Part shown: piece by piece, positions 1 through 20,168 of the stretch
Layout: the number at the start of each line of letters is the position of its first letter
Position numbering within the stretch: the first letter of the stretch is position 1
Source of the DNA: Siminovitchia terrae
GTDB lineage: Bacteria; Bacillota; Bacilli; Bacillales; Bacillaceae_C
Reading direction: 5' to 3'
Assembly (NCBI RefSeq): GCF_003605405.2
Contig: NZ_QYTW02000003.1
Coordinates: 124,001 to 188,000, forward strand
Length of the DNA stretch: 64,000 nucleotides
Position numbers and translations under genes: made by a program
Notes under the pieces: generated by a model
What the model was told of the DNA's origin: nothing
The model's input: only the letters and a program-made list of their open reading frames with translations
Database searches by the model: none

Positions 1-1
1 A

Positions 2-1645
2 ATTGGTGCTATCCAAAACAGTGATGAACAAAAAATAAACGCATCTGATCACCCTGACCTTGAGCAGCTCCTAAAAATCGGGTTGCTTTGTAATGACAGT
101 CTATTGGAAAAGACGCCAAAAGGCTGGGTAATACAGGGCGATCCAACAGAAGGTGCACTTTTAAGCCTGGGGGCCAAAGCGGGGAAAACAAAGGCAAATA
201 TGGTTCATTGGATCCGTTACAATGAAATTCCGTTTGATTCAGGAAGGGGAACGATGAGCGTAGCTTGCCATGAAGAGAAACAGGACAAAGACTGCTATAT
301 ATTTACAAAAGGGTCTGTCGAGGCAATTATTGATCGATGCAATCAGTACCAAAAGGACGGAAAAGTTTTCCCTCTAACAAAAGAAATAAAGGAGTGGATC
401 ACAAGCCAAAATAAAAAATATGCAGAGCAATCATTAAGGGTTCTTGCTTTTGCATACCGCCCAATCCAATCTGGACATGAAAGTGAGCAAGTTGAAGAAG
501 AGGAGTTAATTTTTGTGGGCCTTGCGGGAATGATAGACCCGCCTAAACAGGAGGTCAAGAAAAGTGTACAAGATGTGATCAGGCTTGGAGTAAAGCCGGT
601 CATGATAACAGGTGACCATCCTATAACGGCCTTTGCCATCGGCAAGGAATTAAATATCGTAACTGATTCGGCTGAAGTTCTTTCCGGAATGGAACTGGAC
701 CAACTGAGTGAAGAACAGCTCGTAGAAAAAATAAAAGATGTCTCTGTTTTTGCAAGAGTATCCCCTGAGCAAAAATTACGGATTGTCAACGCCTACCAAA
801 AGCTCGGCCATATTGTCGTGATGACGGGTGATGGTGTGAATGACAGCCCTGCTATTAAAAAAGCGGATGTCGGCGTTTCCATGGGGATTGCAGGAACGGA
901 TGTAACAAAAGAAACTTCGGATATGGTGCTGAAGGAGGATGACTTCACCTCTATTGTTGATGGCATTAAGCGGGGAAGAACTATCATCGGCAATATCCGA
1001 AAAGCATTAGGTTGTCTTTTAACCGGGAATCTATCCGAAATTTTAGTCACGACCACAGCAGTATTGATTGGGCTCCCGATACCGTTGGTTCCCATCCAGA
1101 TATTATTAATGAACCTGTTGACGGATGCCATTCCGGCAACGATTCTGGCTGCAAATCCGGGCAACAAAAATTTGCTGACAAAACAGCAGGATATTGCCGA
1201 CAGGTCACTTTTTCAAAAAATTGCAGTACGCGGATTGCTTCTTTCCGCAGGTGTTGTTGGGATCTTTGCATATAGCCTGTCAGCCGGTATGCCTTTAGCT
1301 ATCGCACAAACGATGGCTTTTGCCACATTGGTTGCGGGACAGCTTGTACAAACATTTTCATGGAGACAAGAAGGCACCATTGGACCGTTGGCTGATTGGA
1401 AAAAAGACCAGTACTTTATAGCCGGACTAGGCATCTCCTGGCTTACTTTGGGCTTAGTGATGTATATCCCTCCCCTTGCGTCCGTATTTCAGACAGCACC
1501 TCTGACGCTTGGGCAATGGCTGCCTCCTCTGTTGGTTGCCGGTTCAGTACCGGCTGTTTCAAAAATGATTCAGCCGGCCATCGAGCGTCACTTAAATCAT
1601 GTTAATGACAGAAAACCGCAACCTGCGCTCCAGCCAGTCATTTAG
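2..1645 (+). CDS. Cation-transporting P-type ATPase (Ca2+-ATPase-like), C-terminal part
   Basis: The frame is open from the left edge, so the N-terminal part, including the DKTG phosphorylation site and transmembrane helices M1-M4, lies outside the window. The visible 547 residues hold the nucleotide-binding region (GDPTEGALL, FTKGSVEAI), the hinge motif ITGDHP, the MTGDGVND motif coded at about 820-843, and the C-terminal membrane domain. M5/M6 read GNLSEIL and NLLTDAIPA, which resemble SERCA-type Ca2+ pumps rather than Cu/Cd P1B pumps. It would use ATP to expel or take up a divalent cation at the plasma membrane. It is followed closely by two small genes on the same strand. Substrate is inferred from the M6 motif only. 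Confidence 0.9.
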   Translation: MGAIQNSDEQKINASDHPDLEQLLKIGLLCNDSLLEKTPKGWVIQGDPTEGALLSLGAKAGKTKANMVHWIRYNEIPFDSGRGTMSVACHEEKQDKDCYIFTKGSVEAIIDRCNQYQKDGKVFPLTKEIKEWITSQNKKYAEQSLRVLAFAYRPIQSGHESEQVEEEELIFVGLAGMIDPPKQEVKKSVQDVIRLGVKPVMITGDHPITAFAIGKELNIVTDSAEVLSGMELDQLSEEQLVEKIKDVSVFARVSPEQKLRIVNAYQKLGHIVVMTGDGVNDSPAIKKADVGVSMGIAGTDVTKETSDMVLKEDDFTSIVDGIKRGRTIIGNIRKALGCLLTGNLSEILVTTTAVLIGLPIPLVPIQILLMNLLTDAIPATILAANPGNKNLLTKQQDIADRSLFQKIAVRGLLLSAGVVGIFAYSLSAGMPLAIAQTMAFATLVAGQLVQTFSWRQEGTIGPLADWKKDQYFIAGLGISWLTLGLVMYIPPLASVFQTAPLTLGQWLPPLLVAGSVPAVSKMIQPAIERHLNHVNDRKPQPALQPVI

Positions 1646-1671
1646 ACTTTATGGGAAGGAGGAAAGATAAA

Positions 1672-1905
1672 ATGAATGAAGAATACAACAATGCCCAAGA
1701 TAACTCAAATCCTCTTTATAACGGTATAATTAATGCCTTGCAGCTTATGCGCCCTGCAGCTGTTTTAGGAATCAAAGGTTTAATGGAGCTTGGCGAAAAG
1801 ACTAAAACACTCACAGCATACGCCCGTGAAGAATTCGAAGACCTTGTAGCTGAAGCCCAATTTGAAAGAATGAAACAACAGATTGATGAGGAACAAAAGG
1901 AGTAG
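1672..1905 (+). CDS. Small conserved-looking protein downstream of the P-type ATPase
   Basis: I do not recognise the family. The protein is 77 residues starting MNEEYNNAQDN. I chose the ATG at 1672 because a strong ribosome binding site (GGAAGGAGGAAAG) lies just upstream; an ATG at 1651 would put that site inside the gene. A central hydrophobic stretch (LMRPAAVLGIKGLMELG) is followed by a charged helical tail (EEFEDLVAEAQFERMKQQ), which suggests a membrane-associated or amphipathic helical protein. The gene begins 27 bases after the ATPase stop, so it is probably cotranscribed with it. A role as an accessory subunit of the pump is only a guess from position. Confidence 0.7.
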   Translation: MNEEYNNAQDNSNPLYNGIINALQLMRPAAVLGIKGLMELGEKTKTLTAYAREEFEDLVAEAQFERMKQQIDEEQKE

Positions 1906-1971
1906 CTAATTAATGGCAGCGGACTTCTTGCAAGAATGCCCGCTGCCGATTAAACTCGGGAGGTATTCCAA

Positions 1972-2208
1972 TTGAGTGGCCAAAATAATGAAATAACTCA
2001 TGAACTTAGTAAAGCGCTTAAACATTTAAGTAAAGCTTTAACAATCAGTATTCACTCCCTAAAAGCAGACCCCGACGCAAAAAAACATGTCGGTGAATTA
2101 TGGGAAAGTTTTCTTAGCGCATTTTTCAGCCAGATCAGAGAAAGAGGTAAAGAAAGCAAAATCAACTTATTACATTTGATTTCCTTTTCAAATATAAGAA
2201 AGTATTAA
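1972..2208 (+). CDS. Small helical protein, third gene of the P-ATPase cluster
   Basis: This 78-residue product is predicted from a TTG start at 1972 preceded by GGGAGG at a normal distance. The sequence (MSGQNNEITHELSKALKHLS...) is polar and helical without an obvious membrane segment. It follows the previous small gene by 66 bases on the same strand, so the three genes look like one transcription unit. I recognise no domain. Its last residues (NLLHLISFSNIRKY) are hydrophobic and different in character, which may reflect drift at the end of a decaying or recently trimmed gene. Confidence 0.55.
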   Translation: MSGQNNEITHELSKALKHLSKALTISIHSLKADPDAKKHVGELWESFLSAFFSQIRERGKESKINLLHLISFSNIRKY

Positions 2209-2215
2209 CAATCTT

Positions 2216-3433
2216 TTATCTTGAAGGTATCTCCGCCGCCTCTTCAAAATCATCCGCTGCTGCGGCATGTTTCAGTCTTGGCGCCAATAAAAGGGCCATT
2301 GCCAATAGACCGACACATAACCATAAGGCAGCCGATATTCCGCCCAACTTGTCAGTCAGCAATCCTCCAATGCCCGGTCCAAGGATCTGTCCCCCGGCAA
2401 AATAGATGGTCACATACCCCAATGCGATTGGAGCATAGGATTGGTGGACCTGCTCGGTCGAAAGTGCCTGGATAAGAGAAAGCATACCAACAAACGTGAA
2501 TCCCCAAAGCGCCTGGCTTATGACGAAGCTTGATAAGACAGGAATGAATATGGGGATCAAAATGGATGACCCTCCTAGGAAAATAGTGATGCACAAAGAC
2601 AGCTTCCTTCCGATATTATCGGAAACGGCACCCCATACCGGCCCGCTGAATATACTCATTACGCCTCCCAAAGCCATTATGTCTCCAGCGTTTTTTTCAT
2701 TTACGCCAGCTTCCAAAATATAGCTGAAAAAGAAGCTTTGAGGTATCAAATAGGCAAAGCCAATCAAACCATAAATAAAAGCGACAAGCAAAACACCTTT
2801 ATGGAAATAAACTTCCTTGAATAAGGATACACCCTGTTCTCCTTTTTGGGACAAAGGTACAGGCGGATCTTTTAAAATCCTAACAGCAACCAAAGTGGTT
2901 AGGATGGAACCAACCCCAAAAAGAAGCCAAAGATAGCGCCAGCCGTAATCATCGAACCATATATTAAAAATTGGCGCAATCAGGCTTGCAATCAGGGTTC
3001 CAAGTCCCATCCCGCTTAACAAAAGGCCGATCATCATCCCCCTATTGTTCGGAAACCATCCGACGACAATATTTACAAGTGGAGTGTATCCAAAAGCGGT
3101 TCCGACACCAAGCATGATCATTCCAATAAGAGAAGCCGCATAGCTCCCTGCATTGAATAAAATTATACAACCCCCGGCAAGAAGCAAAAGACCGATTACA
3201 ACGAGCGGCTTTGACCCCCATTTGGATGCCATGATCCCTACAAGCAATACCATGGCTAGGTAACCGACCGCTGTGGAGGTCCCCAACATCCCTGCCTGCT
3301 GATAGGAAAGATTAAGACTGTCTCTCATATATGGCATAAGAATCCCGTAGGCCATCCTTCCAAAGCCCGATATGCATATGGTGATCAACATACTGACAAT
3401 AGCATATATCCACATTCTTTTTCGCTGTTTCAT
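2216..3433 (-). CDS. Major facilitator superfamily permease, YbfB/YjiJ-like
   Basis: A 405-residue protein with about 12 hydrophobic segments and no large soluble domain. The N-terminus (GFGRMAYGILMPYMRDSLNLSYQQAGMLG is split around helix 1) has the arrangement of YbfB/YjiJ-type MFS proteins, and the loop 2-3 motif region reads ASKWGSKPLVVIG, a degenerate form of the MFS signature. A central cytoplasmic loop (about residues 188-208) separates the two six-helix halves. Substrate cannot be told. The gene runs convergent to the P-ATPase cluster, with 7 bases between the two stop codons. The start ATG at 3433 has GGGGTGGAGGA directly upstream, so spacing is tight and a slightly later start is possible. 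Confidence 0.85.
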   Translation of the reverse strand: MKQRKRMWIYAIVSMLITICISGFGRMAYGILMPYMRDSLNLSYQQAGMLGTSTAVGYLAMVLLVGIMASKWGSKPLVVIGLLLLAGGCIILFNAGSYAASLIGMIMLGVGTAFGYTPLVNIVVGWFPNNRGMMIGLLLSGMGLGTLIASLIAPIFNIWFDDYGWRYLWLLFGVGSILTTLVAVRILKDPPVPLSQKGEQGVSLFKEVYFHKGVLLVAFIYGLIGFAYLIPQSFFFSYILEAGVNEKNAGDIMALGGVMSIFSGPVWGAVSDNIGRKLSLCITIFLGGSSILIPIFIPVLSSFVISQALWGFTFVGMLSLIQALSTEQVHQSYAPIALGYVTIYFAGGQILGPGIGGLLTDKLGGISAALWLCVGLLAMALLLAPRLKHAAAADDFEEAAEIPSR

Positions 3434-4046
3434 TCCTCCACCCCATCGGCTGAAAACTTTTCCATCAAAAAATTTAGAATAAACCTGTAATTAATTGTAC
3501 CAAAAAGATCATTGCTTGAAAAAAAAGACCTTCAATTGTGTAGAGATAATAAAGTCGTTTAATAACCAATAGTTGGAAGATATTTAAGTTATTTAATTTT
3601 TAATATAAGGGACGTGGAGAAGTTGTCTCAACAAGGAAACGGTAATCATCCTCACCTTCCCCCATGAATATAACCTTTAGTTCACGTTTATATATAAATG
3701 GCACTAAAAAATGCCAAGCATTCCTGATAGTACTAACAACAAGTATTGCAATAACTAAAGCTAGTGTTAAATCTATGAAGAAGTGAATTTAACCATTCAA
3801 ATACATAGGAACACAACCAGAAGTCAGAAAAGACGCGTGCGGCTGATGGAAACATTGGGACGCCTCCACACCCTCCTGCTGCAAAAAATGCCTCTATAAA
3901 TCCAATAATTATAATTGGTTGAATAACTTGAAACCGTTTCAATAAGTAGGCATAATCTTCCCTAGTATAGTTTATCTAAGTATAATATACTCTCCTCCTA
4001 CACTTGCAATAAAAAGCTCTGGGTTTAACATCACATCGAACGAAGT
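3434..4046. other. AT-rich intergenic region without a convincing gene
   Basis: About 610 bases between the MFS permease and the small membrane protein. Short open frames exist, including a minus-strand one of 69 codons at 3733-3942, but it lacks a ribosome binding site and resembles no known protein. No RNA gene or repeat copy was recognised. Confidence 0.5.
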
Positions 4047-4523
4047 TCAATCAGTCACAATCCTTTGATATTTAATTAGGAATATTGTCAAAATTACAGA
4101 TAGTAGTAACCCTTCTAACACATAACCCCAACTAAAGAATGAAACAGCATTAGGGAAATAGCCTAAAATACCGTCAATACCAGACCTTATCTTCGACCCT
4201 TCGTCAACAATTCTTTGCATGACACTTCCAATATACAAAGGGTTAATGTCATAAATAAATGCACTTGTCAAATATATCGAAATTTTCTCTGCAATACAAG
4301 GAACCAAAAAACTTAACGCATAAAAAGTTTTGCTGTTCCCTTTACAGAAGGCTGAATAATACAATGCCCCAACTGTATAGGGGAAAATTATCAATAAAAT
4401 ACCCAAAACATGCTTTACATTCCAACCAATCAAGAAAGCTACGGAATATGTCAGTAGGTAAGTGAATAGTATAATCAACCAACCTAAACACAATCTGAGA
4501 AAAACTATAAAGCGTTTTTTCAA
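4047..4523 (-). CDS. Four-helix membrane protein at the end of the BceAB-RS cluster
   Basis: An unrecognised 158-residue protein. It starts with TTG at 4523 behind a very strong site (GGGGGAGGTG). Hydrophobic segments lie at about residues 10-34, 38-58, 65-85 and 125-150; the loop between the third and fourth (INPLYIGSVMQRIVDEGSK...) is polar and probably extracytoplasmic. It is 85 bases downstream of the histidine kinase gene on the same strand, so it may be the last gene of the peptide-resistance operon. Some Bce-type loci carry extra small membrane proteins, but nothing in this sequence proves a resistance role. Confidence 0.7.
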   Translation of the reverse strand: MKKRFIVFLRLCLGWLIILFTYLLTYSVAFLIGWNVKHVLGILLIIFPYTVGALYYSAFCKGNSKTFYALSFLVPCIAEKISIYLTSAFIYDINPLYIGSVMQRIVDEGSKIRSGIDGILGYFPNAVSFFSWGYVLEGLLLSVILTIFLIKYQRIVTD

Positions 4524-4608
4524 CTTTACACCTCCCCCTTTTTGTATTGGTGGTGCTTTTCCATCTTCTCATGATCTAAGCATTATCTCATTATGTGCGG
4601 TTGGTAGC

Positions 4609-5646
4609 TTATTGTTTCACATGTGGAAATATTAGCGATATAGTCAACCCCGAATCAAGCTCTGATTTTGCATCCAACTGAATGGCTAAATCATTAGCCA
4701 TCTTGCTTACTAAAAAGAGTCCCATGCCCGTTGCTTGTCTTGTATAAGTACCTCGCCCTCCAGTAAAACCCTTGTCAAAAATAAATGGCAGATCTTCTTC
4801 AGATACACCAGGTCCATTATCACTAATATGTAAAATGGTTTGTTCACTCACTTCATCATAAACCATTTCAAACTTCAGAATGGGATTATCCTGATTTTGT
4901 ACAACATATTTCGTACTATTAAAGATTAGTTGTTCTAATATAAAAGCTAGTCCCTTGCAATCAGATAAAATTTCCATATCTTCACCTATGAACTGTATTT
5001 GAAAACCGGATTCATCTAGTAGTGTTTGATGGTCTTCAATTGTCTGTTTACAAACTGCTAGTAAGCTTATAGACTCAAAAATATAATCTTTATGAACAGC
5101 CCCAAGTCTTGCAAAATACAAAATTCTCTCTACGTCTCCAAGCATTTGATCTCTAATATGAAGCATACGCTTTCTAACAAGGGGAGACATTTCGTCACTG
5201 CGGTTATCTAATACCAGTGTCATCAATGACAGAGGCTTTTTAATTTCATGAACCCACCCTTCTATATAGTTTTCATAATCGGTCAACTCAATGACTTGAT
5301 CATTAAGTTCCGACTGATACGACCTTATGATACCCCCCATACTTCGGATATATGACCAATGTGTCTTAGGAGATACCCGGCATAATCGTTCTTCGTTCGC
5401 CTCATTCGGTTCTAACAAAAAATCTTGGAAAGCAGCTTCTATTATCTTTTGCTTTTTATTGATGATGAATACAGACAACGATACCATGGCTAGAGTAAAA
5501 ACAATCATGAGTCCTACTAAAACATTAAACGTTTCAGGATAAGCTAACCAAGCTAAAAAACTAAATAGGAGACTTGTAGCCACCAACATAAGAAACCATT
5601 GTTTATAAGCATACAAACAATCATAGATTTGCTTTAACCATTTCAT
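4609..5646 (-). CDS. bceS: BceS-like intramembrane-sensing histidine kinase
   Basis: The 345-residue protein has two closely spaced transmembrane helices (about 16-35 and 41-62) with almost no extracellular loop, the hallmark of intramembrane-sensing kinases. These kinases perceive a cognate BceAB transporter rather than the peptide itself. The phosphoacceptor is His133 in GWVHEIKKPLS. The ATPase domain shows the N box (FNSTKYV), G1 (SDNGPGV), F (FIFDKGFTGG) and G2 (TGMGLFL) motifs. It follows the response regulator gene by 8 bases. The family controls resistance to cell-wall peptides such as bacitracin or lantibiotics; the exact inducer is unknown, so the symbol denotes the family, not proven orthology. 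Confidence 0.9.
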   Translation of the reverse strand: MKWLKQIYDCLYAYKQWFLMLVATSLLFSFLAWLAYPETFNVLVGLMIVFTLAMVSLSVFIINKKQKIIEAAFQDFLLEPNEANEERLCRVSPKTHWSYIRSMGGIIRSYQSELNDQVIELTDYENYIEGWVHEIKKPLSLMTLVLDNRSDEMSPLVRKRMLHIRDQMLGDVERILYFARLGAVHKDYIFESISLLAVCKQTIEDHQTLLDESGFQIQFIGEDMEILSDCKGLAFILEQLIFNSTKYVVQNQDNPILKFEMVYDEVSEQTILHISDNGPGVSEEDLPFIFDKGFTGGRGTYTRQATGMGLFLVSKMANDLAIQLDAKSELDSGLTISLIFPHVKQ

Positions 5647-5654
5647 GGCTTCAC

Positions 5655-6320
5655 TTACCCCCTAAGTCGATAACCTTTACCCCTTATTGTTTCAATTTGA
5701 CTTTCCAAGTTTAATTGTCGCAATGTTTTTCGCAAGCGAGTGAGATTTACTTGAAGTGCATTTTCGTCTATATATTGGTCTGTTCCCCATAAAAGATCAC
5801 TTAGTGTTGACTTGGATACAACCTCAGGTTTATTCTGTACTAAAGCCAATAAAATTTTTCCTTCATTAGCTGATAATGATAACGATTGCGATCCCTTATA
5901 CAAAGTAAAAGTATTTGGGTCTAGCGAAAAACTGCCCCCATCTATCAGGCCTAGTTGTCCTTCAAATCTTCTAAGCAGGTTCTGAATGCGCGCCAATAAT
6001 CGATCTCGATTGCATGGTTTTGTGAGATAATCATCTGCACCTAAATGAAGACCGTGTAATTCATCCTGTAACTTATCTCTAGATGTAAGAATCAATATGG
6101 GACCCATTCCTTTTAATTTTAGACTTTTGCATATTTCAAATCCTGACTGTTCCGGTAAATTGATGTCTAATAAAACTAGGTCTGGTGCCGAAGTGGCAAT
6201 TTGAGCAACAATATCATGGAAGTCTGCAATTGCCCTCACTTCAAACCCTTCTTTTTGCAATATATCCATTAACTCTTCTCTCATCATTGAATCATCTTCG
6301 ACAATTGTAATTCTCGCCAA
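5655..6320 (-). CDS. bceR: BceR-like OmpR-family response regulator
   Basis: A 221-residue regulator with a receiver domain (acidic pocket Asp9-Asp10, phosphoacceptor Asp52 in LLDINLP, Lys101 in LTKPC) and a C-terminal winged-helix DNA-binding domain ending in IRGKGYRL. It sits between the permease and kinase genes of the same operon. Such regulators activate the promoter of their own transporter genes. A perfect inverted repeat upstream of the ATPase gene (9386-9402) is the best candidate binding site in the window. Confidence 0.92.
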   Translation of the reverse strand: MARITIVEDDSMMREELMDILQKEGFEVRAIADFHDIVAQIATSAPDLVLLDINLPEQSGFEICKSLKLKGMGPILILTSRDKLQDELHGLHLGADDYLTKPCNRDRLLARIQNLLRRFEGQLGLIDGGSFSLDPNTFTLYKGSQSLSLSANEGKILLALVQNKPEVVSKSTLSDLLWGTDQYIDENALQVNLTRLRKTLRQLNLESQIETIRGKGYRLRG

Positions 6321-6356
6321 TTCAGCACCTCCTTCGATGTGAAATGTAACGGTTCC

Positions 6357-8522
6357 TTAATCTATATTCGGCTTCCAGCGCAATTTATCGATCTCATGAT
6401 CTGCTGCTCGGGCAACCGCTATTCCATAAATCACCAAAAATACGATAACTATACATGCAAAGGTAAAGGTGATAGGATACAGTAACGCATTGTCTTCGAT
6501 GCGAATCATAACAAATACAATCATCGCCCTTATCCCAACAGCACCACTCACACACGCAAGAGACATAGGTAACAGAAAGGTCCACAACACCTGTCTACGC
6601 ATCGATTTTTTCATTTGATGACGTTTTGCCCCTAACATGGAAAGCGTTACATAGCGCCCGCCAGTCTGCTTCATCTGTGTCAAAAATTGTAAAGCTAATA
6701 CCGTACAAGCAATCATCAAGAATAAGAATCCCATATATAAGACCGTATAACTTCCAGCAACAACATAGAAGAGTTGACGCCCAAAGTTTTGTAAATAACT
6801 TTCAAACTCGAAGCCTGAAGACTTTAATAAGTCTCTAGCCTCCATCATTGGTTTCATTAAACCTTGCTGATCTTGCATCTTTTGTGGGATACGAAAATTC
6901 CAATATAACGCATAGGTTTCCGTATCTAATAATGGTTCAAACATATGATCGGGGACGATAAATGCTGAATGAATTTCTACGGAACTGTCTGCTACTAATC
7001 CTCTCATTGGAATTGATGGGCGTATCAATACTTCCTGATCATTAATGCTCATCAAACTTTGCCCTTCTTTTGCAGCCTTTTCAAGAATACTATCAAGTAC
7101 AGGCATGCTGTCTAGATTATCCGTAGGCATAAAATCCGGATTAAAATATAAAGCAATTTCATTTGAATGTAGATTCAGTGGTTTTTCTCCTATCGCTTCT
7201 AAAAGTCCATTATAAGATGATTCAGGAATGAGATAAGGTGTTGTTGCATCTATCTCTAGAATTCCAAACAGATTAAGTGCTTCAGGGTTTTCCGAACTGA
7301 TATCATAGCCCTGCATTTCTCCAGATAAAATTTGCTCTTTGTAGTTGTTTGGCAGAGCCCTAATGAGTTGCTCTCTTAATTCAGACCATTCTACCAACGA
7401 TAAAGGCAAGTCGTCTTCCCCACGTTCATCCTGATATTTCATTTCCCCAATTTCTAGTAGGTTTAAGTCCTCTACATATGGTACCATTTTTTCTGAAGTA
7501 AGAAATTGTTCAACCTTTTGATTATCCCCATTAACAGTAAAATCATATATCGAGGAATGCCTACTAAAGGCACTTTCAAATCCTATAATAGTTGAAGCAC
7601 CATTTGCGATCAAAATGATCGACAACGTGATGAGAATCGATGTGACAGCAACAGAAGTAGATTTATTAGTTATGTTCTCTTGAAACTGCCTTAATGTAAA
7701 TGTGTGAAGATCTTTAGTAGACTTATGCTTAAACATGCTTGCCAACAAGCCTAGTAATTTTGCAAATCCTTTCATAAAAAGGATCGTTCCTAAACTTCCC
7801 AGAGCCAATGCCACAAACAGAAGCAGTCCTGCAAAGTCCATCAAACGATATAAAACAATCCAATAGGCAACGCCTAGCAAGACAGAACCTACTAACATAT
7901 GGAGTACGTTGCCTTTAACATGACCCATATCCTGTTTCTTATCCATTTGCTCATAAAGTAATTGATGGACCTCTTGATTAAATAATCTTCCGCCAAGAAT
8001 GACTAATGCTATCAACTGGATGAATAAAAAACCGATTATGGTAAAGAAAATCGCACCTACCGACAAGCTTATTTGATGACCAATAATTCCCTGTCCAACT
8101 AATTTAGAAACCGTCAAACTGATGATTTCTGCTAAAAATCCGCCTATTAAAATGCCTCCAATGAGTGCCAAAATAGAAGTAATGAACCCCTCTGCTAAAA
8201 GTTGAAGAACAAGGCGTTCCTTGCGCATTCCTAACATGAGATAAAGCCCAAACTCTTTGCTTCTCCGATTTAATTGATACTGATTAGCAAATAAAATCAA
8301 GAAAAACAATAAAAATAATGCAAATAGATACACAATGGGCATCTGAGCTAAAAGTTTATCGATCGAATCACTCTCAAACTCCCTTAAGAATAAAATAACA
8401 TCTTGTCTCCCCAGTGAAAGAATGATATAAAATGAGGCTACTGCTGTTACAAGTGTTGCAAAATAGATTAAATTCTCCTTACGACTTCGTTTAGCATTAC
8501 GATAAATCAGCCTAGAGAACAT
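6357..8522 (-). CDS. bceB: BceB-like permease of a peptide-resistance ABC transporter
   Basis: A 721-residue FtsX-type permease with about ten transmembrane segments. The order is one helix, then three (about 55-80, 110-140, 150-180), further helices to about 300, a large extracytoplasmic domain at about residues 320-560, and a final group of three. The large domain between helices 7 and 8 is typical of BceB proteins, which bind peptide-lipid II complexes and also signal to the BceS kinase. I chose the ATG at 8522: it overlaps the ATPase gene end by 11 bases and is preceded by GGGGGAGG. An upstream TTG at 8540 would lie in front of that ribosome binding site. Confidence 0.9.
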   Translation of the reverse strand: MFSRLIYRNAKRSRKENLIYFATLVTAVASFYIILSLGRQDVILFLREFESDSIDKLLAQMPIVYLFALFLLFFLILFANQYQLNRRSKEFGLYLMLGMRKERLVLQLLAEGFITSILALIGGILIGGFLAEIISLTVSKLVGQGIIGHQISLSVGAIFFTIIGFLFIQLIALVILGGRLFNQEVHQLLYEQMDKKQDMGHVKGNVLHMLVGSVLLGVAYWIVLYRLMDFAGLLLFVALALGSLGTILFMKGFAKLLGLLASMFKHKSTKDLHTFTLRQFQENITNKSTSVAVTSILITLSIILIANGASTIIGFESAFSRHSSIYDFTVNGDNQKVEQFLTSEKMVPYVEDLNLLEIGEMKYQDERGEDDLPLSLVEWSELREQLIRALPNNYKEQILSGEMQGYDISSENPEALNLFGILEIDATTPYLIPESSYNGLLEAIGEKPLNLHSNEIALYFNPDFMPTDNLDSMPVLDSILEKAAKEGQSLMSINDQEVLIRPSIPMRGLVADSSVEIHSAFIVPDHMFEPLLDTETYALYWNFRIPQKMQDQQGLMKPMMEARDLLKSSGFEFESYLQNFGRQLFYVVAGSYTVLYMGFLFLMIACTVLALQFLTQMKQTGGRYVTLSMLGAKRHQMKKSMRRQVLWTFLLPMSLACVSGAVGIRAMIVFVMIRIEDNALLYPITFTFACIVIVFLVIYGIAVARAADHEIDKLRWKPNID

Positions 8523-9291
8523 TTGCGCTTCCTCCCCCAAGCTGAGCTAGTAACTGCAAAATTCTTTCATAAAATGTCTCTTGTGACTCATCATGTTTGC
8601 GACGCAACTCATGAAAGATAACACCATCTTGAATAAAAAGGATTCTTGAGCAAAAACTTGCTGCATTAGGATCGTGGCTGACCATTAAAATAGTTCTTCC
8701 ACTACTTCTATTAATACCTTCCAACTTATTCATTAATGTTCTTGCAGAACGTGTGTCCAATGCTCCTGTCGGTTCATCGGCAAGAACGATGTCTGGATCA
8801 GAAATCAAACTACGTCCAGCAGCTACCCTTTGCTTTTGTCCCCCAGACATCTGAGATGGGAATTTATGAAGGATATCTGTAATTTCAAAAAAACCTGCCA
8901 GCTCATCTAATTTAGCTTTTGCTTTTACAAAATCCACCCCATAAATAGATAATGGTAATAGGATATTTTCTTGTCCAGTTAAATTATCCAGCAGTGCAAA
9001 GTCTTGAAACAAATATCCAATTCGACTACCGCGATATTCAGCTAAATCCTTACTGTTAAAAGCACTGATGTTTTTACCATTTAGAAGTACACGCCCAGAT
9101 GTTGGTTTTATTATTGTTGCAATGCAGTTTAATAATGTCGTTTTACCAGATCCACTTGGCCCCATTATTCCTAAGAATTCTCCTGGGAGAATATCAAAGC
9201 TAACACCGTTTAAAGCTTTTGTTATATTGTTTTTCTTACCGTAGATTTTTTGTAAGTCTTGAACTTCCAGTAATTTTCCTTGCCTGATCAC
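8512..9291 (-). CDS. bceA: BceA-like ATPase of a peptide-resistance ABC transporter
   Basis: A 259-residue ABC ATPase of the MacB/LolD class. Walker A is GPSGSGKTT at about residue 44, the signature SGGQKQR begins at about 149, Walker B is IVLADE at about 168-173, and the switch His is in MVSHDP. It is the first gene of a minus-strand operon ATPase-permease-regulator-kinase-membrane protein. The C-terminal extension of about 25 residues is rich in Glu/Gln and specific to this protein. The pair would remove or release cell-wall-active peptides from their lipid targets. Confidence 0.93.
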   Translation of the reverse strand: MIRQGKLLEVQDLQKIYGKKNNITKALNGVSFDILPGEFLGIMGPSGSGKTTLLNCIATIIKPTSGRVLLNGKNISAFNSKDLAEYRGSRIGYLFQDFALLDNLTGQENILLPLSIYGVDFVKAKAKLDELAGFFEITDILHKFPSQMSGGQKQRVAAGRSLISDPDIVLADEPTGALDTRSARTLMNKLEGINRSSGRTILMVSHDPNAASFCSRILFIQDGVIFHELRRKHDESQETFYERILQLLAQLGGGSANVL

Positions 9292-9356
9292 TGTATAACA
9301 CTCCTTTTCTTATTATGACTTTCCGAAGTTATAATCGACCGAATTGAGCTATACAC

Positions 9357-9402
9357 ATTATAATCAGTATAAAAGACTAGAAACACTTACAAATGATGTA
9401 AG
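9357..9402 (-). promoter_or_regulatory. Putative BceR-dependent promoter of the bceAB-like operon
   Basis: Upstream of the ATPase gene lies a perfect inverted repeat, CTTACA-N5-TGTAAG, at 9386-9402. It is followed on the minus strand by a consensus -10 box TATAAT at 9357-9362. The region 17 bases before the -10 box is a poor -35 (TGTTTC), as expected for an activator-dependent promoter with the operator placed just upstream of -35. Position and symmetry are seen; binding by the neighbouring regulator is inferred. Confidence 0.6.
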
Positions 9403-9838
9403 GAAAAATGAATGATGTTGATTTGAAAAATTTGAATCACTATATATATTGCACCCCAATAGTTCATTATTGAAGATCATCACGTATGCCAGCAATGACC
9501 TTTCATAATAAATATTCTCTGTAATAAAGGGCATCAGTTAGACAAGTTTGTCTAACTGATGCCCTTACTACTATGTTTGGCTTTTGCTATGTTAATGTCT
9601 TGGACTTCGAAGTATGCTAATAACTTAATAGCCCAAATACCACTAGCATTGACAAACCCCGAAGGCGGTGATGATAGATTGTAATCCAATCTTGACTATA
9701 TAGTGATGATAATGATATAGGCTAACCTAATATTTTGAAACAACATAAAATACCTTTGAATGGGTGTACAGAAGTATAAAAATTACCTATTACAGAATAT
9801 ATGATTCATTTGGTGGGCTTCTTGTGAATATCATGAAA
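9403..9838. other. Intergenic region holding one long perfect palindrome
   Basis: No gene was recognised. The only feature is the 40-base inverted repeat at 9527-9566, listed separately. The remainder is AT-rich sequence up to the first family A repeat. Confidence 0.5.
9527..9566. terminator. Perfect 19-bp inverted repeat
   Basis: Two 19-base arms (AAGGGCATCAGTTAGACAA and its complement) are separated by only two bases. There is no real T-run on either side, so a terminator role is uncertain. No gene ends here: the nearest are the start of bceA to the left and the MntP-like gene to the right. It could be an intrinsic stem-loop, or the fused ends of a lost mobile element. Confidence 0.5.
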
Positions 9839-10035
9839 TCAAATGCGCCTTGGCGTATTTGCGCCCAGATTTTATCGAGCTTAAGCTCGATAAATTTCCT
9901 CTGAAAATCTGTGGCATCCGCCGGAGGCTTTGACTTTATTCAGCCGGGGGGTTTGAACCCCCACTGAATGGAATACCAATATGCATACATCTCACCACTT
10001 ATAGAAGTGGGAGATTTCTGCTGAATGAAGTTAAA
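9839..10035 (+). repeat. Family A repeat, copy 1
   Basis: This 197-base copy starts TCAAATGCGCC and ends GAAGTTAAA. It holds a GC-rich end hairpin, a hairpin TTTATCGAGC/GCTCGATAAA with a TTAA loop, a GGGG/CCCC hairpin and a CCACTT/AAGTGG hairpin. The TTAA loop is shared only with copy 2. Confidence 0.9.
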
Positions 10036-10165
10036 ATGACAAGTTTTTTAAGGAATTTGCGAGAATCAGCTTCTAACCAATTATAAATGGTGTCCAAACT
10101 TTTGTTTAATGTTTTGCATTTCATATGAAGACAGGAATTTTTTATATGAAGGAGGATATTTTTAG

Positions 10166-10732
10166 TTGGACTTCCTATCGACTATTATCATGATTAATTT
10201 AGTTGGTATTGGTGCTAATTTAGATAATTCCAGTATCGGAATGGCTTACGGAATAGAGAAAGTTCATTTCCCCCATAGGGTTAATTTTATTGTCAATGTG
10301 ATTGGATTTATAAGTGCTTTAATTGGTACGTATGCAGGAAAATCCCTTTCTCAAATTACTCCTTATCAATTTGGTGCAATCTCCTCTTGTATTGTTCTTT
10401 CTTCACTTGGATGTTTTATTTTATATTCTAATTATATACATCCTTATACAACCCAAAAAAAAGAATTAAAACTTCAGAGACCTAACCTTCGTATGGGAAT
10501 TTATTTGGGATTAGGACTTTCAATTTCTAATGCTTTTAGTGGTCTTGGAGTGGGTTTGGCTGATATGGCAAACATGTGGTGGATTGCTTTAAGTATTACT
10601 GTTTGGGGATATCTATTAATCTGGTTCGGTAATTTATTTGGGGCCAAGATAATTGTAAGGCGGCTTGGAAAACATTCATCCTTTGTGGCTGGATTACTGC
10701 TAATTATAATTGGGATTAAACAAATTTATTAA
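10166..10732 (+). CDS. MntP/YtaF-like membrane protein
   Basis: A 188-residue protein of about six transmembrane helices starting with TTG at 10166 behind GGAGG. Its first helix reads GIGANLDNSSIGMAYGI, closely resembling the Asp-containing signature of MntP (manganese efflux) and YtaF (sporulation membrane protein). The second half repeats the fold, but the matching helix reads SISNAFSGLGVGLADM, with Asn where MntP has Asp, so manganese transport is uncertain. The gene is very AT-rich and stands alone between two sister copies of repeat family A in direct orientation. This suggests it travelled or was trapped with them. YtaF-like identity is also possible given the sporulation context. Confidence 0.7.
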   Translation: MDFLSTIIMINLVGIGANLDNSSIGMAYGIEKVHFPHRVNFIVNVIGFISALIGTYAGKSLSQITPYQFGAISSCIVLSSLGCFILYSNYIHPYTTQKKELKLQRPNLRMGIYLGLGLSISNAFSGLGVGLADMANMWWIALSITVWGYLLIWFGNLFGAKIIVRRLGKHSSFVAGLLLIIIGIKQIY

Positions 10733-10807
10733 TATGCAAACGAATAGGTCATAATGGAATGTGTTATTTTGCAGAGTACCGTCTCTTTTCCGTGGAATTT
10801 TATTAAA

Positions 10808-11002
10808 TCAAATGCGCCTTGGCGTATTTGCGCCCAGATTTTATCGAGCTTAAGCTCGATAAATTTCCTCTGAAAATCTGTAGCATCCACCGGAGGCTTT
10901 GACTTTATTCAGCCGGGGTTTGAACCCCCACTGAATGGAATACCAATTTGCATTCATCTCACCACTTATAGAAGTAGGAGATTTCTGCTGAATGAAGTTA
11001 AA
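10808..11002 (+). repeat. Family A repeat, copy 2
   Basis: A 195-base copy in the same orientation as copy 1 and sharing its diagnostic TTAA hairpin loop. The two copies bracket the MntP/YtaF-like gene as a direct repeat. It ends about 110 bases before the recombinase start. Confidence 0.9.
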
Positions 11003-11114
11003 ATGTTTTTTTAAAATAAACAATAAATTTTATTCTATTTATAAAGGTTAACCGATATGATTTTAGTTAGATACACCATAAAAAAAGTGACACTAAAAAT
11101 AAGGAAGGAGCTCT

Positions 11115-12743
11115 ATGCTTTTGTCGGCACGTAAAAAACTAATTGATCAATTTGGGATTAAAAACATTATTAATTATTTACGGAGGTCTAGACAAGACGA
11201 AGAGCGAGAAAAGAAAACAGGCGAAGATACACTACATGAGCAAAAACAACTGATGGATCGAGTACTAAATGAATATAGAATCCCTTATAATCAAGTTTCG
11301 GAAATAGGATCTGGAGACAAAATTTCAACCCGCCCAGTTTTTATGCAAGTTATACGTGATTTAAAAAACGAGAAATATGAAGCAATTGCTGTAAAAGAAA
11401 TATCTCGTATGGGAAGAGGATCTTATACAGATATGGGGACTATTTATGACTTGATTATCGAGAAGCGAATCTACATCATCACGCCCTCGAAGATTTATGA
11501 TCCCACAAACCCAGCAGACTTGCGGCACATTCGCTTTGAATTGTTTTTATCCAGGGAAGAGTTTGAATCAACAAAGGAGCGACTTAATGGAGGTCGTTAT
11601 AACGCTGCATTAGAAGGAAAGTGGGTTTCAGGACCACCTCCATTTGGGTTTGATTACAGCCCTGCTACAGGAAGATTAATAATTAATGAGGAAGAGGCAG
11701 GGATAGTACGGGCCATTTTTGATTATTACGCAAACGGGATTATTTTAAATAACGGAAAAAGAAAATTAGTTCAATTTCGTGCGCTGGCGACCTATTTAAA
11801 GCGAATTGGCATAAAAACTCCAACTGGTAAAGACAATTGGTCCCCTCCTTTTTTGAAAGAGTTTCTTTCACACGATCGATATATTGGCACGCTGCGGCAA
11901 AATACTAGGCAAACTTTATCGAATGGAAAAAAGGTTCCCCGCCCAGAGGAAGAACATATTGTAGTAGAAAAGGCCCACCCCGCTATTATTGATATGGAGA
12001 TATGGAGCAAAGTCCAATATAGAATCAATAACCGGGACATCCCGACACATACAAAGCTCGATTTTGAACCAAATAGATTAGCAGGATTGTGCATTTGTAA
12101 GAAATGCGGCAAGAAATTTATAAGAAGAGCTAGCGAAAGGACTTATATTAAGAAAGACGGCAGCGTAAGTTATTATGAAAATGAATTTTTGTTTTGCGGA
12201 ACAGTCGGATGCACCTATGTTAAATATAAACCGGTTGAGGAAGACATACTTGAAACTCTAAAAATTTTAAAAGACCTGAATCCCTCTTTATTAAAATCAC
12301 AAGTTGAAAAGATTGTAATCAAAGAAAAGCCTATCGACTCCAAAGAGGATATTATTAAGCGTATTAAATCCAGACGCGAGGAATTAGATAGGCGTATGAA
12401 ATTTATTTATGAGAAACATGAGACAGGAGTCTATTCTGATGAGAGATTTCTTGAGAGAAAAGCGGAAATTGATAAAGAGTTAGAAGAACTTGCAAAGATT
12501 AATGTTGAGGATCAAAAAGAGAATGAGAACGAGGAATTTGATCCAAGCGTAATAAAAAGAAATTTAAATTCTGTTTTGCAAGCATATGAGAACACGACCA
12601 GTGAATTAAATAAAAACAAATTGTTGCATAGTGTATTCAGCCATATTTTTATAGAAATCGTTAAAAAAGGGAGCGGTTCAAGGCCTGCAACCCACCAAAT
12701 CGAGCCTTATCTAAAAAGTACCGTATTGTCAAAACCCAATTGA
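11115..12743 (+). CDS. Large serine recombinase at the end of an intervening element
   Basis: A 542-residue site-specific recombinase. The N-terminal resolvase domain (about 17-160) has the catalytic Ser25 in YLRRSRQDEE and the conserved Arg in ISRMGRGS. It is followed by the recombinase domain (about 185-290), a zinc-ribbon (ICKKCGKKF and FCGTVGCTY, about 330-375), and a coiled-coil C-terminal part. Such enzymes integrate and excise phages and the skin elements of sporulation genes. Start ATG at 11115 follows GGAAGGAGCT. The gene ends only 38 bases from the broken dpaB and runs convergent to it, the usual position of a recombinase beside its attachment site. I found no convincing mother-cell sigma promoter; a CATA at 11077 is a weak candidate. 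Confidence 0.93.
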   Translation: MLLSARKKLIDQFGIKNIINYLRRSRQDEEREKKTGEDTLHEQKQLMDRVLNEYRIPYNQVSEIGSGDKISTRPVFMQVIRDLKNEKYEAIAVKEISRMGRGSYTDMGTIYDLIIEKRIYIITPSKIYDPTNPADLRHIRFELFLSREEFESTKERLNGGRYNAALEGKWVSGPPPFGFDYSPATGRLIINEEEAGIVRAIFDYYANGIILNNGKRKLVQFRALATYLKRIGIKTPTGKDNWSPPFLKEFLSHDRYIGTLRQNTRQTLSNGKKVPRPEEEHIVVEKAHPAIIDMEIWSKVQYRINNRDIPTHTKLDFEPNRLAGLCICKKCGKKFIRRASERTYIKKDGSVSYYENEFLFCGTVGCTYVKYKPVEEDILETLKILKDLNPSLLKSQVEKIVIKEKPIDSKEDIIKRIKSRREELDRRMKFIYEKHETGVYSDERFLERKAEIDKELEELAKINVEDQKENENEEFDPSVIKRNLNSVLQAYENTTSELNKNKLLHSVFSHIFIEIVKKGSGSRPATHQIEPYLKSTVLSKPN

Positions 12744-12777
12744 CATGCGGTTTCTTTTTTTAATAACATGAGATTAA

Positions 12778-12792
12778 CACTCATCTGTCGGT
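12778..12792. other. Probable attachment junction of the element in dpaB
   Basis: On the minus strand dpaB reads ...GCATTAACCGACAG and then leaves the family sequence: the expected Ser-Pro-Val codons are replaced by Arg and a stop. The crossover must lie in or near ACCGACAG. The partner half-site with the rest of dpaB would be at the other end of the element, beyond the left edge of the window. Confidence 0.7.
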
Positions 12793-13107
12793 TAATGCAT
12801 TGGCAAATTTACTCATTGAATTTCCGGTCAACGGGGCGATCACCATACAGTCAAGTGGCTCTTTCGGTCCGAGCGGCTCCGCATCCACAATCGAATCTAT
12901 GACTCTTCGTCCTGCTGTATGTTCAATCCTGGCAATCCAATCATCGCTCTCTCCAAACTTCGTATCTGTGCTTTTGACAGTATAAGTGACGACAGGAACA
13001 ACTTCCGCTCCAGCACCCGCCAGCTTTTCAATTTCCGGAATAACAGCATCATAGGTACAATGCGACCCAGTTAAACCGAAACCGATTCGCTTACCTTTTA
13101 AACTCAT
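12781..13107 (-). pseudogene. dpaB: Dipicolinate synthase subunit B, 5' part, interrupted by an intervening element
   Basis: The 108-residue open frame matches the N-terminal half of DpaB/SpoVFB, a flavoprotein-like subunit that with DpaA makes dipicolinic acid in the mother cell. It carries KGKRIGFGLTGSHCTY, then GPKEPLDCMVIAPLTGN and SMSKFANALTD. The family continues SPVLMAAKAT and is about 200 residues long; here one Arg and a stop follow Asp107. Start ATG at 13107 lies 4 bases after the dpaA stop, as in intact operons. The sequence up to the break is undamaged, so this looks like a gene split by a removable element rather than a decayed pseudogene. Confidence 0.92.
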
Positions 13108-13111
13108 TTTT

Positions 13112-14008
13112 TTATTTCCCCTTTCGGCTTTCCAGCTCTTCTCCCAGCAATTGTGATAGTACATTCGCCAAAATTTGTCCCGCTGTTTTAGGTGCAACAA
13201 TTCCCGGCAAGCCGGGCGCAAGAAGTGCTTTGATGCCTCGCTTCTCTGCATAGCGGAAGTCTGTGCCACCAGGCTTAGAGGCCAAATCAATGATTAAGGT
13301 ATGTGAAGGCATTTGGGCAATAACGGCGGCGTTGACTATTGGATAAGGTACAGTATTAATACAAATATCTATATCATTCACTTCATTCCCAAGATCATTT
13401 AAATAAAATGGCTGCAACCCCATTTCGGTTATCCTGGCAATATGTTTGCTCTTTCTTGCCCCAACCTTTACTTTAGCTCCCAACAAAGAAAAGGTCCGAG
13501 CAACACTCATTCCAACTCTCCCCAGTCCGAGTACGGCTATGGATGACTGATGGATAGTTATGTCCGTATTTTGTATGGCCATCATTATCGTTCCTTCAAC
13601 AGTGGGGATCGAATTATAAATGGCCACATCGTCTCTTTCAAAGAGATTGATGAGCTTTCGTTTTGATTTTTTTATGATATTATCCAAATACTGGTTGCTG
13701 ATTCCTGAATAGACAGTGCAATACGATGGTGTCTGTTGCAGGATTTCTTCTGTTAACACAATTTTTTCACTGGAGAATATCGTTTCTACTTCTCCTTCCA
13801 AGCTCGTTCCGGGAACAGGTAAAATAATCGCGTCTATATTTGAAAAATTCAGGTCATGAAGCCTCTCTTTCACCGCTCCGGAAAAGGGCTGTTCTAATTG
13901 TTCAAAGCCAGCAAGGTATATTTTTGCATCCAGTTCTGCCAGCTTTTTAATGATTTCCAACTGTCTTGCATCTCCGCCCATGACCACAATCTGCATATCC
14001 GTCAACAT
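13112..14008 (-). CDS. dpaA: Dipicolinate synthase subunit A
   Basis: A 298-residue protein (B. subtilis SpoVFA is about 297). It has an N-terminal dipicolinate-synthase domain (MLTDMQIVVMGGDARQLEII) and a C-terminal Rossmann fold with VLGLGRVGMSVART. The conserved end is KALLAPGLPGIVAPKTAGQI. With DpaB it oxidises the dihydrodipicolinate-pathway intermediate to dipicolinic acid, a core component of spores. I chose the ATG at 14008 because it matches the family start and has GAAGGTGAT upstream; a start at 14071 would place the sigma-K-like promoter inside the gene. Transcription is expected in the mother cell late in sporulation. Confidence 0.96.
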   Translation of the reverse strand: MLTDMQIVVMGGDARQLEIIKKLAELDAKIYLAGFEQLEQPFSGAVKERLHDLNFSNIDAIILPVPGTSLEGEVETIFSSEKIVLTEEILQQTPSYCTVYSGISNQYLDNIIKKSKRKLINLFERDDVAIYNSIPTVEGTIMMAIQNTDITIHQSSIAVLGLGRVGMSVARTFSLLGAKVKVGARKSKHIARITEMGLQPFYLNDLGNEVNDIDICINTVPYPIVNAAVIAQMPSHTLIIDLASKPGGTDFRYAEKRGIKALLAPGLPGIVAPKTAGQILANVLSQLLGEELESRKGK

Positions 14009-14055
14009 CAAAGATCCATCACCTTCTTTCGCTCCTGCTGAACCCTTTGCCACCT

Positions 14056-14082
14056 TATTGTATGATTGCATAAAAATAGAGT
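14056..14082 (-). promoter_or_regulatory. Sigma-K-type promoter of dpaAB
   Basis: On the minus strand the sequence AC-N16-CATA-N3-TA is present: AC at 14081-14082 and CATACAATA at 14056-14064. This matches the sigma-K consensus with the usual spacing and lies 48 bases before the dpaA start. The B. subtilis spoVF operon is transcribed by sigma-K. The match is seen; use is inferred. Confidence 0.7.
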
Positions 14083-14246: not shown

Positions 14247-14543
14247 TTACCAACAGCGGTTTCTCTTATGGATCAAGCTATCCCCCAGATTTTTTAAAGA
14301 GGATTGAAGGGCCGTGCTATCGACTTCTTTCCGCCAGCAAGTGGCTTCTTCCCTTTTCATTTGAGGAAGTAAAGCAGAACAAGCCTCATAGGACAAACCT
14401 TTTCCAATTTTTACATACGCCATATTCCAACGATGAAGAAAATGGTTATAGACAAATCTTGAACAACCGATGGTTTTAGCGATGAAGATTTCTTGTTCTT
14501 TCGTTGGATAGATACGAAACTTGCAGGCTTTGTGCCGCAGCAT
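14247..14543 (-). pseudogene. Truncated TnpB (IS200/IS605 OrfB-like), N-terminal fragment
   Basis: The 98-residue frame starts MLRHKACKFRIYPTKEQE and continues TIGCSRFVYNHFL and KEVDSTALQSSLKNL. This is the helix-turn-helix N-terminus of TnpB, the RNA-guided nuclease of IS605-type elements. Frame is lost after about 95 residues, so the RuvC-like nuclease and zinc-finger parts of the roughly 370-residue protein are missing. No tnpA is present. The remnant sits between dpaA and the polyamine gene and records a past insertion. Confidence 0.8.
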
Positions 14544-15016: not shown

Positions 15017-16522
15017 ATGCAAAAACAATTACAACAAATTACAGCTGATATGCAGCTTGAAGAACATTATCTCACATTAGAAAAGGCTCTACTTGATTTA
15101 TATTTCCATAAAAATTGCACCACTAAATCTTTAGCTCATACGACAGGCTTACCAATACCTATCGTTTCAGCAATGAAGAAAGAATTTGCTAAGCGAGGAT
15201 GGGGCAAACATAGCTTAACGAAAAAAGGCCAGCTTGCCATCTCGCAATATTTTCAACTCTCAGGTGCTGATGCTAAGCTCTATCTTCAATTAACGACAGA
15301 TGATGCATTTCGTACAGAATGGATTACACAAAATATAAGCGAATTAAGCACTATTTATGACGCTAGACCCACAGCTGACGTGGCGATTGATCAAGCAAAA
15401 TGTACAGTTGAGACAGCCTTAAAACGTGCATTGCTCGCATTAGACTATACGATGCTACTCAATAAGCGTATTTTGTGTTTAGGCGATGATGATTTCATCA
15501 GTATTGCACTAGCATTTTTACTAAAGAAAATCTCTCCACATTCTACAACTAAAATTGTTGTATTAGATATTGATAGTCGAGTTTTATATACAATTAGTAA
15601 AATAGCTAAAGATTATGAGCTCCCGATTAAAACAGATTATTATAACGTTCAGGAGCCCTTGCCTAAAACATACACCCAACATTTTGATTGTGTATACACA
15701 GATACACCGTATACATTGATTGGCGCACAGCTTTTTTTATCACGTGCAATTAACGCACTAAAGCCAGAAGCTATGCGGCATGTGTTTTTCTCCTACGCTA
15801 AGCGTAGCTATCAAAAGCAGTGGGAGCTACAGCAAAGCTTACATGCTATGGGCTTCGTGATTGACAGTATTAAATACGATATAAACACCTATGAAGGTGC
15901 GCAGATTTTAGGTGCTACAAGCTCATTATTCGTATTACAAACAACAGAGCAAATGACTTCCTACATTCCTAATCAGCGTAAATTTATGCGACCAATTTAC
16001 ACAGGAGAAATTGAGCGGAAATCAGTTGTTTATCAGTGTATCAATTGTCAGCACTCACTTACAGTCGGCGCTGGTCATCAATACACCACGATTGTTCAAC
16101 TTCAATCTAGTGGTTGTCCGATTTGCGAAAATAAAAAGTTTTCACAAATTAAGAGAGCAGTACGAAAAACACAATTCCAGCACGTATTAGGACATCATAT
16201 TTTATTAGAGCTACATGATTGTGATGTTGCATTGCTCAATGACGTGCAACAAATTAAAACGATAATGTGTCAAGCTGCACATAAAGCAAAGGCAACGATT
16301 GTGACCGAACATTTCCATCATTTTTCACCTTATGGGGTTAGCGGTGTAGTCATCATTCAAGAGTCACATTTAACGATTCACACGTGGCCAGAGTTCGGTT
16401 ACGCAGCAATCGATATTTTTACATGTAGCAGTAAACTGGCTCTACATGAGGCTGTTCAATATATTACTGAGCAATTTAATGCTGGAAATGCTACACAGCA
16501 TTACGTGCATCGAGGTAAATAG
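15017..16522 (+). CDS. Fusion of branched-polyamine synthase (BpsA-like) and S-adenosylmethionine decarboxylase
   Basis: A 501-residue two-part protein. Residues 1 to about 75 form a winged-helix domain and about 120-320 an aminopropyltransferase fold with the Gly-Asp-Asp-Asp motif (156-159) and DTPYT, as in BpsA, N4-bis(aminopropyl)spermidine synthase. A zinc-ribbon-like CINC/CPIC pair at about 338-375 links to a bacterial-type AdoMet decarboxylase (about 390-501). That domain has [26 protein letters not shown] and the self-cleavage site Glu449-Ser450 in [11 protein letters not shown]. The second half makes decarboxylated AdoMet, the aminopropyl donor for the first half, so one polypeptide may supply its own substrate. 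Start ATG follows GAGAGGAC. Codon use is more AT-rich than in neighbouring housekeeping genes, and the flanks are mobile-element relics, suggesting transfer. Confidence 0.85.
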
Positions 16523-17753: not shown

Positions 17754-17908
17754 AGTGCGCCTCCTTATTAATCCTACCCTTTGTACAATATATAGCCGGT
17801 TGCCAAGATTTAGAATGGAAAACCCCTTTTAATAAAAGGTACAGATTATTTCAGCCCCTTTTACATAACTTTTGAAATGAAGGGCGTGGATAAAAAGCGA
17901 TTTTTCAA

Positions 17909-20140: not shown

Positions 20141-20168
20141 AAAAGCTTTATGAAAAACAGGCAATCTA

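Follow-up and report, generated by a model that had tools for sequence, protein, structure and literature searches.

Several intervening elements that interrupt sporulation genes have been described. SPβ, which lies in spsM of Bacillus subtilis and has the SprA/SprB pair, is excised during sporulation (PMC4191935), as is gin, which lies in gerE of Bacillus cereus ATCC10987 (PMC5595907). Skin in sigK (PMC4191935), phi3T in kamA (PMC6957869), and yin in yabG (PMC10747680) have also been reported, and the integrase of phi3T is 18.9% identical to SprA (PMC6957869).

We analyzed a 64,000-nucleotide stretch of the Siminovitchia terrae genome (the window), which corresponds to positions 124001–188000 of contig C23. 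The source genome comprises 5,302,661 bases in 68 contigs, with tool-derived values of 100 for completeness and 3.33 for contamination. The window contains part of dpaB, a mother-cell sporulation gene (PMC5629000) that encodes a subunit of dipicolinate synthase; dipicolinate plays a central role in the heat resistance of spores. We propose, with a probability of approximately 0.85, that a non-viral intervening element of 95.5 kb lies in the Ser108 codon of dpaB and is excised in the sporulating mother cell to rejoin the gene.

The vfbin element, reportedly described by Abe in 2013, shares its target gene with our element. It interrupts spoVFB, which is dpaB, in Bacillus weihenstephanensis KBAB4, and the gene is rejoined during sporulation (PMC4191935, PMC10747680); therefore, dpaB is not new as a target. 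vfbin carries phage-related genes (PMC4191935), whereas the cargo of our element is of the host type. SPβ resembles our element in that a recombinase of the SprA family lies beside the break and the attachment (att) sites are placed within the reading frame, which allows an in-frame reunion. SPβ has a small directionality factor, for which our element encodes a candidate. However, SPβ is an active 134-kb phage in spsM, whereas our element is non-viral, lies in dpaB, and matches SPBc2 in only 4 of 99 open reading frames (ORFs). Similar to our element, gin is a non-phage element in a mother-cell gene, and its serine recombinase GirC and small factor GirX have counterparts in our recombinase and candidate factor (PMC5595907). 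In contrast, gin is 28.6 kb in length, carries three recombinase genes, and targets gerE, whereas our element is 95.5 kb and carries one such recombinase together with host-type cargo. Skin, a site-specific element in a sporulation gene, and phi3T and yin, which also occupy sporulation genes, are like our element in these respects, but are prophages or prophage-like and have other targets.

Judged by its anatomy, our element is a large non-viral case of the skin, SPβ, vfbin, and gin kind: it lies inside a mother-cell sporulation gene, the two parts of which have one orientation, the frame is restored at a common core, and a site-specific recombinase is encoded within. Its contents are not those of a phage. 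As far as the literature searched is concerned, the size in combination with host-type cargo, the convergence of two subclades on one codon, the presence of three break sites within dpaB, and the targeting of prkA are new. Prophages of Siminovitchia were not found in this literature, which omits most subscription papers.

Split dpaB gene and attachment sites

The 5′ half of dpaB runs on the minus strand from 13107 down to approximately 12785 of the window (12785..13107) and extends over codons 1–107 and two bases into codon 108. The preliminary description, which was prepared from the window alone, claimed that dpaB is intact to codon 107 and then broken. In agreement with this, the gene is intact through Asp107 and leaves the frame thereafter, and it covers only positions 1–102 of the 187-position TIGR02852 profile. 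The intact dpaA gene (13112..14071, minus strand; TIGR02853, 443.9 bits with a cut-off of 319.65) forms the native right flank. A search of all 68 contigs revealed one other dpaB match, namely, the 3′ half (profile positions 97–187) at C23:41056–41328, on the same contig and strand; a second complete dpaB was not found in this whole-genome search. The 3′ half is followed by asd-, dapG-, and dapA-like genes (named by reading) in the same order as in Siminovitchia fordii, and, thus, both native flanks are in place.

The two halves joined at their common core gave an uninterrupted DpaB of 199 amino acids. The core is CTGT (ACAG in the sense of dpaB), and its copies at C23:41309–41312 and C23:136785–136788, the latter being window 12785–12788, enclose an insert of 95,476 bp. 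The window therefore holds only the right-hand 12.8 kb of the element (1..12786), including a P-type ATPase, an MFS transporter, a Bce-like module, an MntP-like gene, and the recombinase; the remainder extends leftward to C23:41309, where the 3′ half and the second core copy are located. The minimum size of 12.78 kb given in the preliminary description was correct, but far too low. Its prediction that a 3′ half containing SPVLMAAKAT would adjoin a copy of the core was borne out on C23, on the same strand. It had also named a complete second dpaB with no matching 3′ half beside an attachment core, or the deletion of the 3′ half, as grounds for abandoning the idea. Since the 3′ half is retained beside a core copy and a second complete dpaB was not detected genome-wide, neither applies. 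We concluded that the split in dpaB is real. It is beyond chance, given that the halves share a contig and strand, that they join in the exact frame, and that dpaB is broken at this codon in two other species. The interpretation of the insert as an excision element is supported at the sequence level by att sites with inverted repeats, a SprA-like recombinase, and a candidate directionality factor.

The break falls at the same serine codon, in ALTD-S-PVLM, in S. terrae, S. fordii, and Heyndrickxia camelliae. The crossover dinucleotide AG (window 12785–12786, read on the minus strand) forms the first two bases of the Ser108 codon. The counterpart element of S. fordii is 24,515 bp, and its halves also rejoin in frame to 199 amino acids. 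Rebuilt attP sites contained inverted repeats centered on AG in S. terrae (15 of 25 positions; equaled by 39 of 20,000 shuffles) and on TC in S. fordii (16 of 25; 2 of 20,000) and H. camelliae (16 of 22; 0 of 20,000). The Ser108 center outscored every other center tested in S. terrae and S. fordii, while a contig end in H. camelliae leaves the true center outside the list of shifted centers. The dpaB halves and recombinase of H. camelliae are on three contigs, and, thus, this element is not closed. A crossover at the Thr106 codon, at which two bases are common to all three species, was also considered. Ser108 was preferred because it keeps the Asp of the TDSP motif of relatives and because the best attP inverted repeat of S. 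terrae and S. fordii is located there.

The serine codon is AGT in S. terrae and the sister genome G026, AGC in G027, and TCT in G025, the dpaB 3′ half of which is closest to that of S. fordii (dS 0.44). AG- and TC-type serine codons are separated by two base changes. Moreover, the flanking genes of S. terrae and S. fordii are 91% (asd) and 95% (dapG) identical, whereas their recombinases, at 66% identity, are far more diverged. Based on these two differences, we infer that the elements of the two species arose from separate integrations.

Recombinase, candidate directionality factor, and related elements

The large serine recombinase (window 11115..12743, plus strand; 542 amino acids; PF00239 and PF07508) ends approximately 40 bases from the break and converges on it, as previously described. 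It is 41.8% identical over 97% of its length to YokA/SprA of SPBc2, 59% identical to the recombinase of a Terribacillus aidingensis element, and 44% identical to that of the H. camelliae dpaB element. In a phylogenetic tree, it fell inside the SprA-type group and, on this basis, is a member of the SprA subfamily. The S. terrae and S. fordii enzymes grouped with the prkA-targeting enzyme of Terribacillus, whereas that of H. camelliae grouped with SPβ in a separate subclade. A single clade of dpaB-targeting recombinases was rejected (p-AU 3.9e-7) in a test in which the group was defined by the target gene, but with the first tree seen beforehand. The two subclades indicate that the same dpaB codon was chosen at least twice. 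The element contained one recombinase of this kind (E≤1e-20). Other classes of element were examined and rejected: SCC/Ccr (CcrB, 72.6 bits of the 900 required; CcrC, 56.4 of 900; CcrA, 42.8 of 700) and the fdxN element recombinase XisF (67.1 bits of 375).

A small ORF of 102 amino acids (C23:58717–59025, minus strand), homologues of which lie beside the att site in prophages with related recombinases, is a strong candidate for the directionality factor. Its counterpart in the S. fordii element is 53% identical. Among 34 genomes of the family, matches were confined to the two Siminovitchia genomes with a split dpaB, and the other 32 gave none. In H. camelliae, the third genome with a split dpaB, the att site has a diverged SprB-like ORF instead. 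The T. aidingensis element carries a small ORF beside its att site, at the place of sprB in SPβ. When this ORF was used as the query, the candidate ranked first among the 1149 six-frame ORFs from the S. terrae element (E 1.6e-12, with the next at 3.4), and its S. fordii counterpart ranked first among 291 ORFs (E 8.7e-14, with the next at 2.3). Similarly, an ORF adjoining the recombinase on a viral contig ranked both first (E 2.2e-13 and 1.1e-14, respectively), and two further viral contigs, which are nearly alike, carry such an ORF approximately 240 bases from the 3′ half of prkA. Annotated phage and plasmid collections gave no match to the candidate; its relatives come from viral contigs only. 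Its likeness to SprB itself is suggestive only. With several profiles, the candidate ranked first to third among element ORFs at E-values of 0.27 to 2.0, which are not significant, and in the reverse search SprB ranked first (E 0.14), second (E 0.46), or outside the first eight. The hhalign p-values were 0.025, 0.015, and 0.0022.

A split dpaB was found in 3 of the 34 family genomes and in at least 12 of 397 genomes of the order, S. terrae included. The latter census is a lower bound, since the re-examination covered 16 genomes, the selection of which was based mainly on poor best E-values; two genomes (G066 and G214) have dpaB genes that look frameshifted or diverged and were excluded from the count. 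In H. camelliae, the occupant of the codon is a SPβ-like prophage, with 5 of 10 ORFs at one locus (L083) matching SPβ, including tail and endolysin genes. In addition to the serine codon (site A), relatives have two other break sites in dpaB. In one group (g29), dpaB is split near NLM in 9 of 11 sampled genomes; the inserts are approximately 3 kb in most and 9 kb in one, while the halves lie on two contigs in another, and the recombinases are 29–31% identical to ours. The inserts of approximately 3 kb consist of little more than the recombinase (loci L045–L053 and L062–L070). In G093 and G134, dpaB is split near PLD/CMVIAP by inserts of approximately 21 and 11 kb (L054, L055, L060, and L061). 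Overall, the recombinases at these two further sites are approximately 25–31% identical to ours. On another viral contig (L131), dpaB was matched to residue 142 beside a recombinase of the further-site kind.

Close relatives of the recombinase (E≤1e-70) were detected in 9 of the 397 genomes, with up to three candidates scored per genome among the matches listed. Based on a reading of their neighbors, they adjoin dpaB (S. terrae), halves of prkA (four), spsM (three), and one further gene. prkA is a sporulation-related gene. It is split near ISADEL/AHTNE by elements with a SprA-type recombinase in Terribacillus (approximately 43 kb; also present as a viral contig) and Anoxybacillus and, judged by the neighboring genes, in three more genomes of the order (prkA loci: L081 with L101, L086 with L103, L088 with L102, L104, L109, L110, L111, L114, L115, L116, L118, L129, and L130). 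prkA was not found as a target of such elements in the literature searched, most subscription papers being outside it. A viral contig of 40.6 kb carries a recombinase that is 67% identical to ours beside a 5′ half of dpaB and likely provides a picture of the ancestral prophage.

Contents of the insert

The element contains 99 non-overlapping ORFs of at least 60 amino acids, 70 of which have at least 100; 34 of the 99 were run against one or more family libraries, and the others were read by eye. The four ORFs that match SPBc2 are the recombinase, two generic ABC ATPases, and a short thioredoxin-like match; phage structural genes were not found in this comparison of all 99. In PHROGs, 3 of 10 chosen ORFs had matches: a glycine-zipper ORF, weakly, to tail families, and two regulators. 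A plain or SPβ-like prophage (Spbetavirus) was rejected on the SPBc2 comparison, and "prophage-like" is unfit as a description of the contents.

The cargo instead includes an accessory TrpRS, an aldehyde dehydrogenase, an S9 peptidase, a BlaR1-type peptidase, amidohydrolases, a β-lactamase-fold protein, GrpB, a glycan cluster, a CLC channel, and the MFS and MntP-like genes. The possibility that the essential trpS lies inside the element was discarded because a second, better-scoring trpS is present on contig C68. The GC content is 38.3% inside the element and 42.2% in 58.5 kb of flanking DNA.

Three stretches of the cargo, covering 49 kb of the element, were searched for in sister species. The DNA at 81.2–92.4 kb of C23 is collinear with G026:C49 at 81–98% by segment, and that at 120–124 kb matches G026:C52 at 95%. 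A cluster for a thiazole/oxazole-modified peptide (C23:85621–91101; SagB, YcaO/SagD, and TIGR03693) is also present in S. fordii (G024), G025, and G027 (89–91%) and partly in G028 (68%). Since parts of the cargo occur elsewhere in sister species, it appears to be a mosaic that draws on the gene pool of the genus. The peptide cluster lies at other places in four sister genomes and is matched in part in a fifth.

A repeat of approximately 195 bp occurs in the window at 9838–10035, 10807–11002, 17014–17194, 17908–18102, and 20168–20363, with further copies. There are 26 matches in C23:34000–188000, 18 of which are in the element, and 614 first-look candidates genome-wide; sister species also have copies. 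Cargo may have been shuffled into the element with the help of this repeat. In the DNA adjoining the element, in the vicinity of dpaA, the window contains fragments of IS605-type (14247–14543, minus strand) and Mutator-type (16699–17079, plus strand) transposases. A single ORF close to dpaA (15017–16522, plus strand) fuses PF01861, the C-terminal domain of branched-chain polyamine synthase, to PF02675, S-adenosylmethionine decarboxylase. A cobalamin riboswitch (120 bits) is present at 26799–26996 on the minus strand.

Proposed excision and competing explanations

By analogy with SPβ and gin (PMC4191935, PMC5595907, PMC6957869), we infer that the element is excised in the mother cell during sporulation. 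The candidate factor would be produced in the mother cell and would switch the recombinase from integration to excision. A circle of 95 kb would then leave the chromosome, dpaB would be rejoined, and dipicolinate synthesis would become possible. The forespore would retain the element, which would therefore be inherited like any host DNA. We propose that the element originated from a SPβ-like prophage that lost its phage genes and was refilled from the genus gene pool. However, 76 kb separate the candidate factor from the recombinase and 17 kb separate it from the left core, whereas sprB is located by the att site in SPβ. This large distance counts against the excision model.

The evidence for a sporulation promoter is weak. 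Upstream of the candidate factor, the best σE-like match occupies the same position in S. terrae and S. fordii, but 71 of 400 random stretches of 300 bases from the element contained one as good. Within the limit used, the regions upstream of the candidate factor and of dpaA gave no σK match.

One alternative is that the element no longer excises and that dpaB has been lost for good, which would result in dipicolinate-poor spores or poor sporulation. The very large size of the element, its unrelated cargo, the displacement of the candidate factor from the att site, and the σE/σK scan, which did not establish a sporulation promoter, are consistent with such a dead insertion. In contrast, the two dpaB halves, the two att sites, and the recombinase have all stayed intact, and the halves join in the exact frame. 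dN/dS ratios, an indirect gauge of selection since insertion, were obtained by the Nei-Gojobori method from few genomes, with the G025 5′ half left out and G028 saturated. The ratios of the 5′ and 3′ halves were 0.028 and 0.033 against S. fordii, 0.106 and 0.035 against G026, and 0.062 and 0.047 against G027, respectively, while those of the intact pair G026/G027 were 0.082 and 0.066. Both halves thus appear to evolve like a working gene, with no sign of relaxation relative to the intact pair. We consider a dead insertion to be unlikely.

An even less probable explanation is that the element is occasionally lost in growing cells, similar to an ordinary mobile island, and that sporulation depends on these cured cells. 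The promoter scan did not tie the candidate factor to sporulation, and the yin element of C. botulinum was excised at all time points (PMC10747680). However, spores from cured cells would be without the element, which would consequently be lost. Furthermore, in 8 of the 9 genomes that carry a close recombinase, this enzyme is encoded at a split sporulation-type gene (dpaB, prkA, or spsM, as named by reading), which would be expected if these sites are harmless owing to excision in the mother cell. An assembly artefact, in which two unrelated pieces were joined inside dpaB, might be suspected from the draft state of the genome (68 contigs) and the many copies of the 195-bp repeat, but is very improbable because both junctions lie inside a single contig of 352,597 bp, the 110 kb spanning the element (C23:34000–144000) contain no N, S. 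fordii and H. camelliae have dpaB interrupted at this very codon, and the 5′ joint is visible on a viral contig. Within the cargo, a misjoin may be present, which would alter the size of the element.

Excision in the sporulating mother cell remains the preferred explanation. Beyond this, we lean towards a broader interpretation, with appreciably less confidence, in which a prophage-derived dpaB switch has turned into a large, open-ended repository of ordinary host genes. To turn on the production of dipicolinate, every mother cell that sporulates would throw away 95 kb of DNA (1.8% of the genome) that is non-viral and in part native to the genus, in the manner of body versus germline. Two SprA-type subclades would have settled independently on one and the same serine codon in dpaB, and elements related to ours have prkA as their target.

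If excision in the mother cell occurs, the synthesis of dipicolinate in this bacterium would hang on the excision of DNA. The element is more than three-fold larger than gin (28.6 kb), the published non-phage case (PMC5595907), and its cargo is of the host type. Sites of this kind may therefore be safe harbors for stockpiling genes, and not just graveyards of old phages. The repeated and convergent targeting of dpaB, together with prkA, makes it testable whether sequence or the timing tolerated by the host decides which genes these elements choose.
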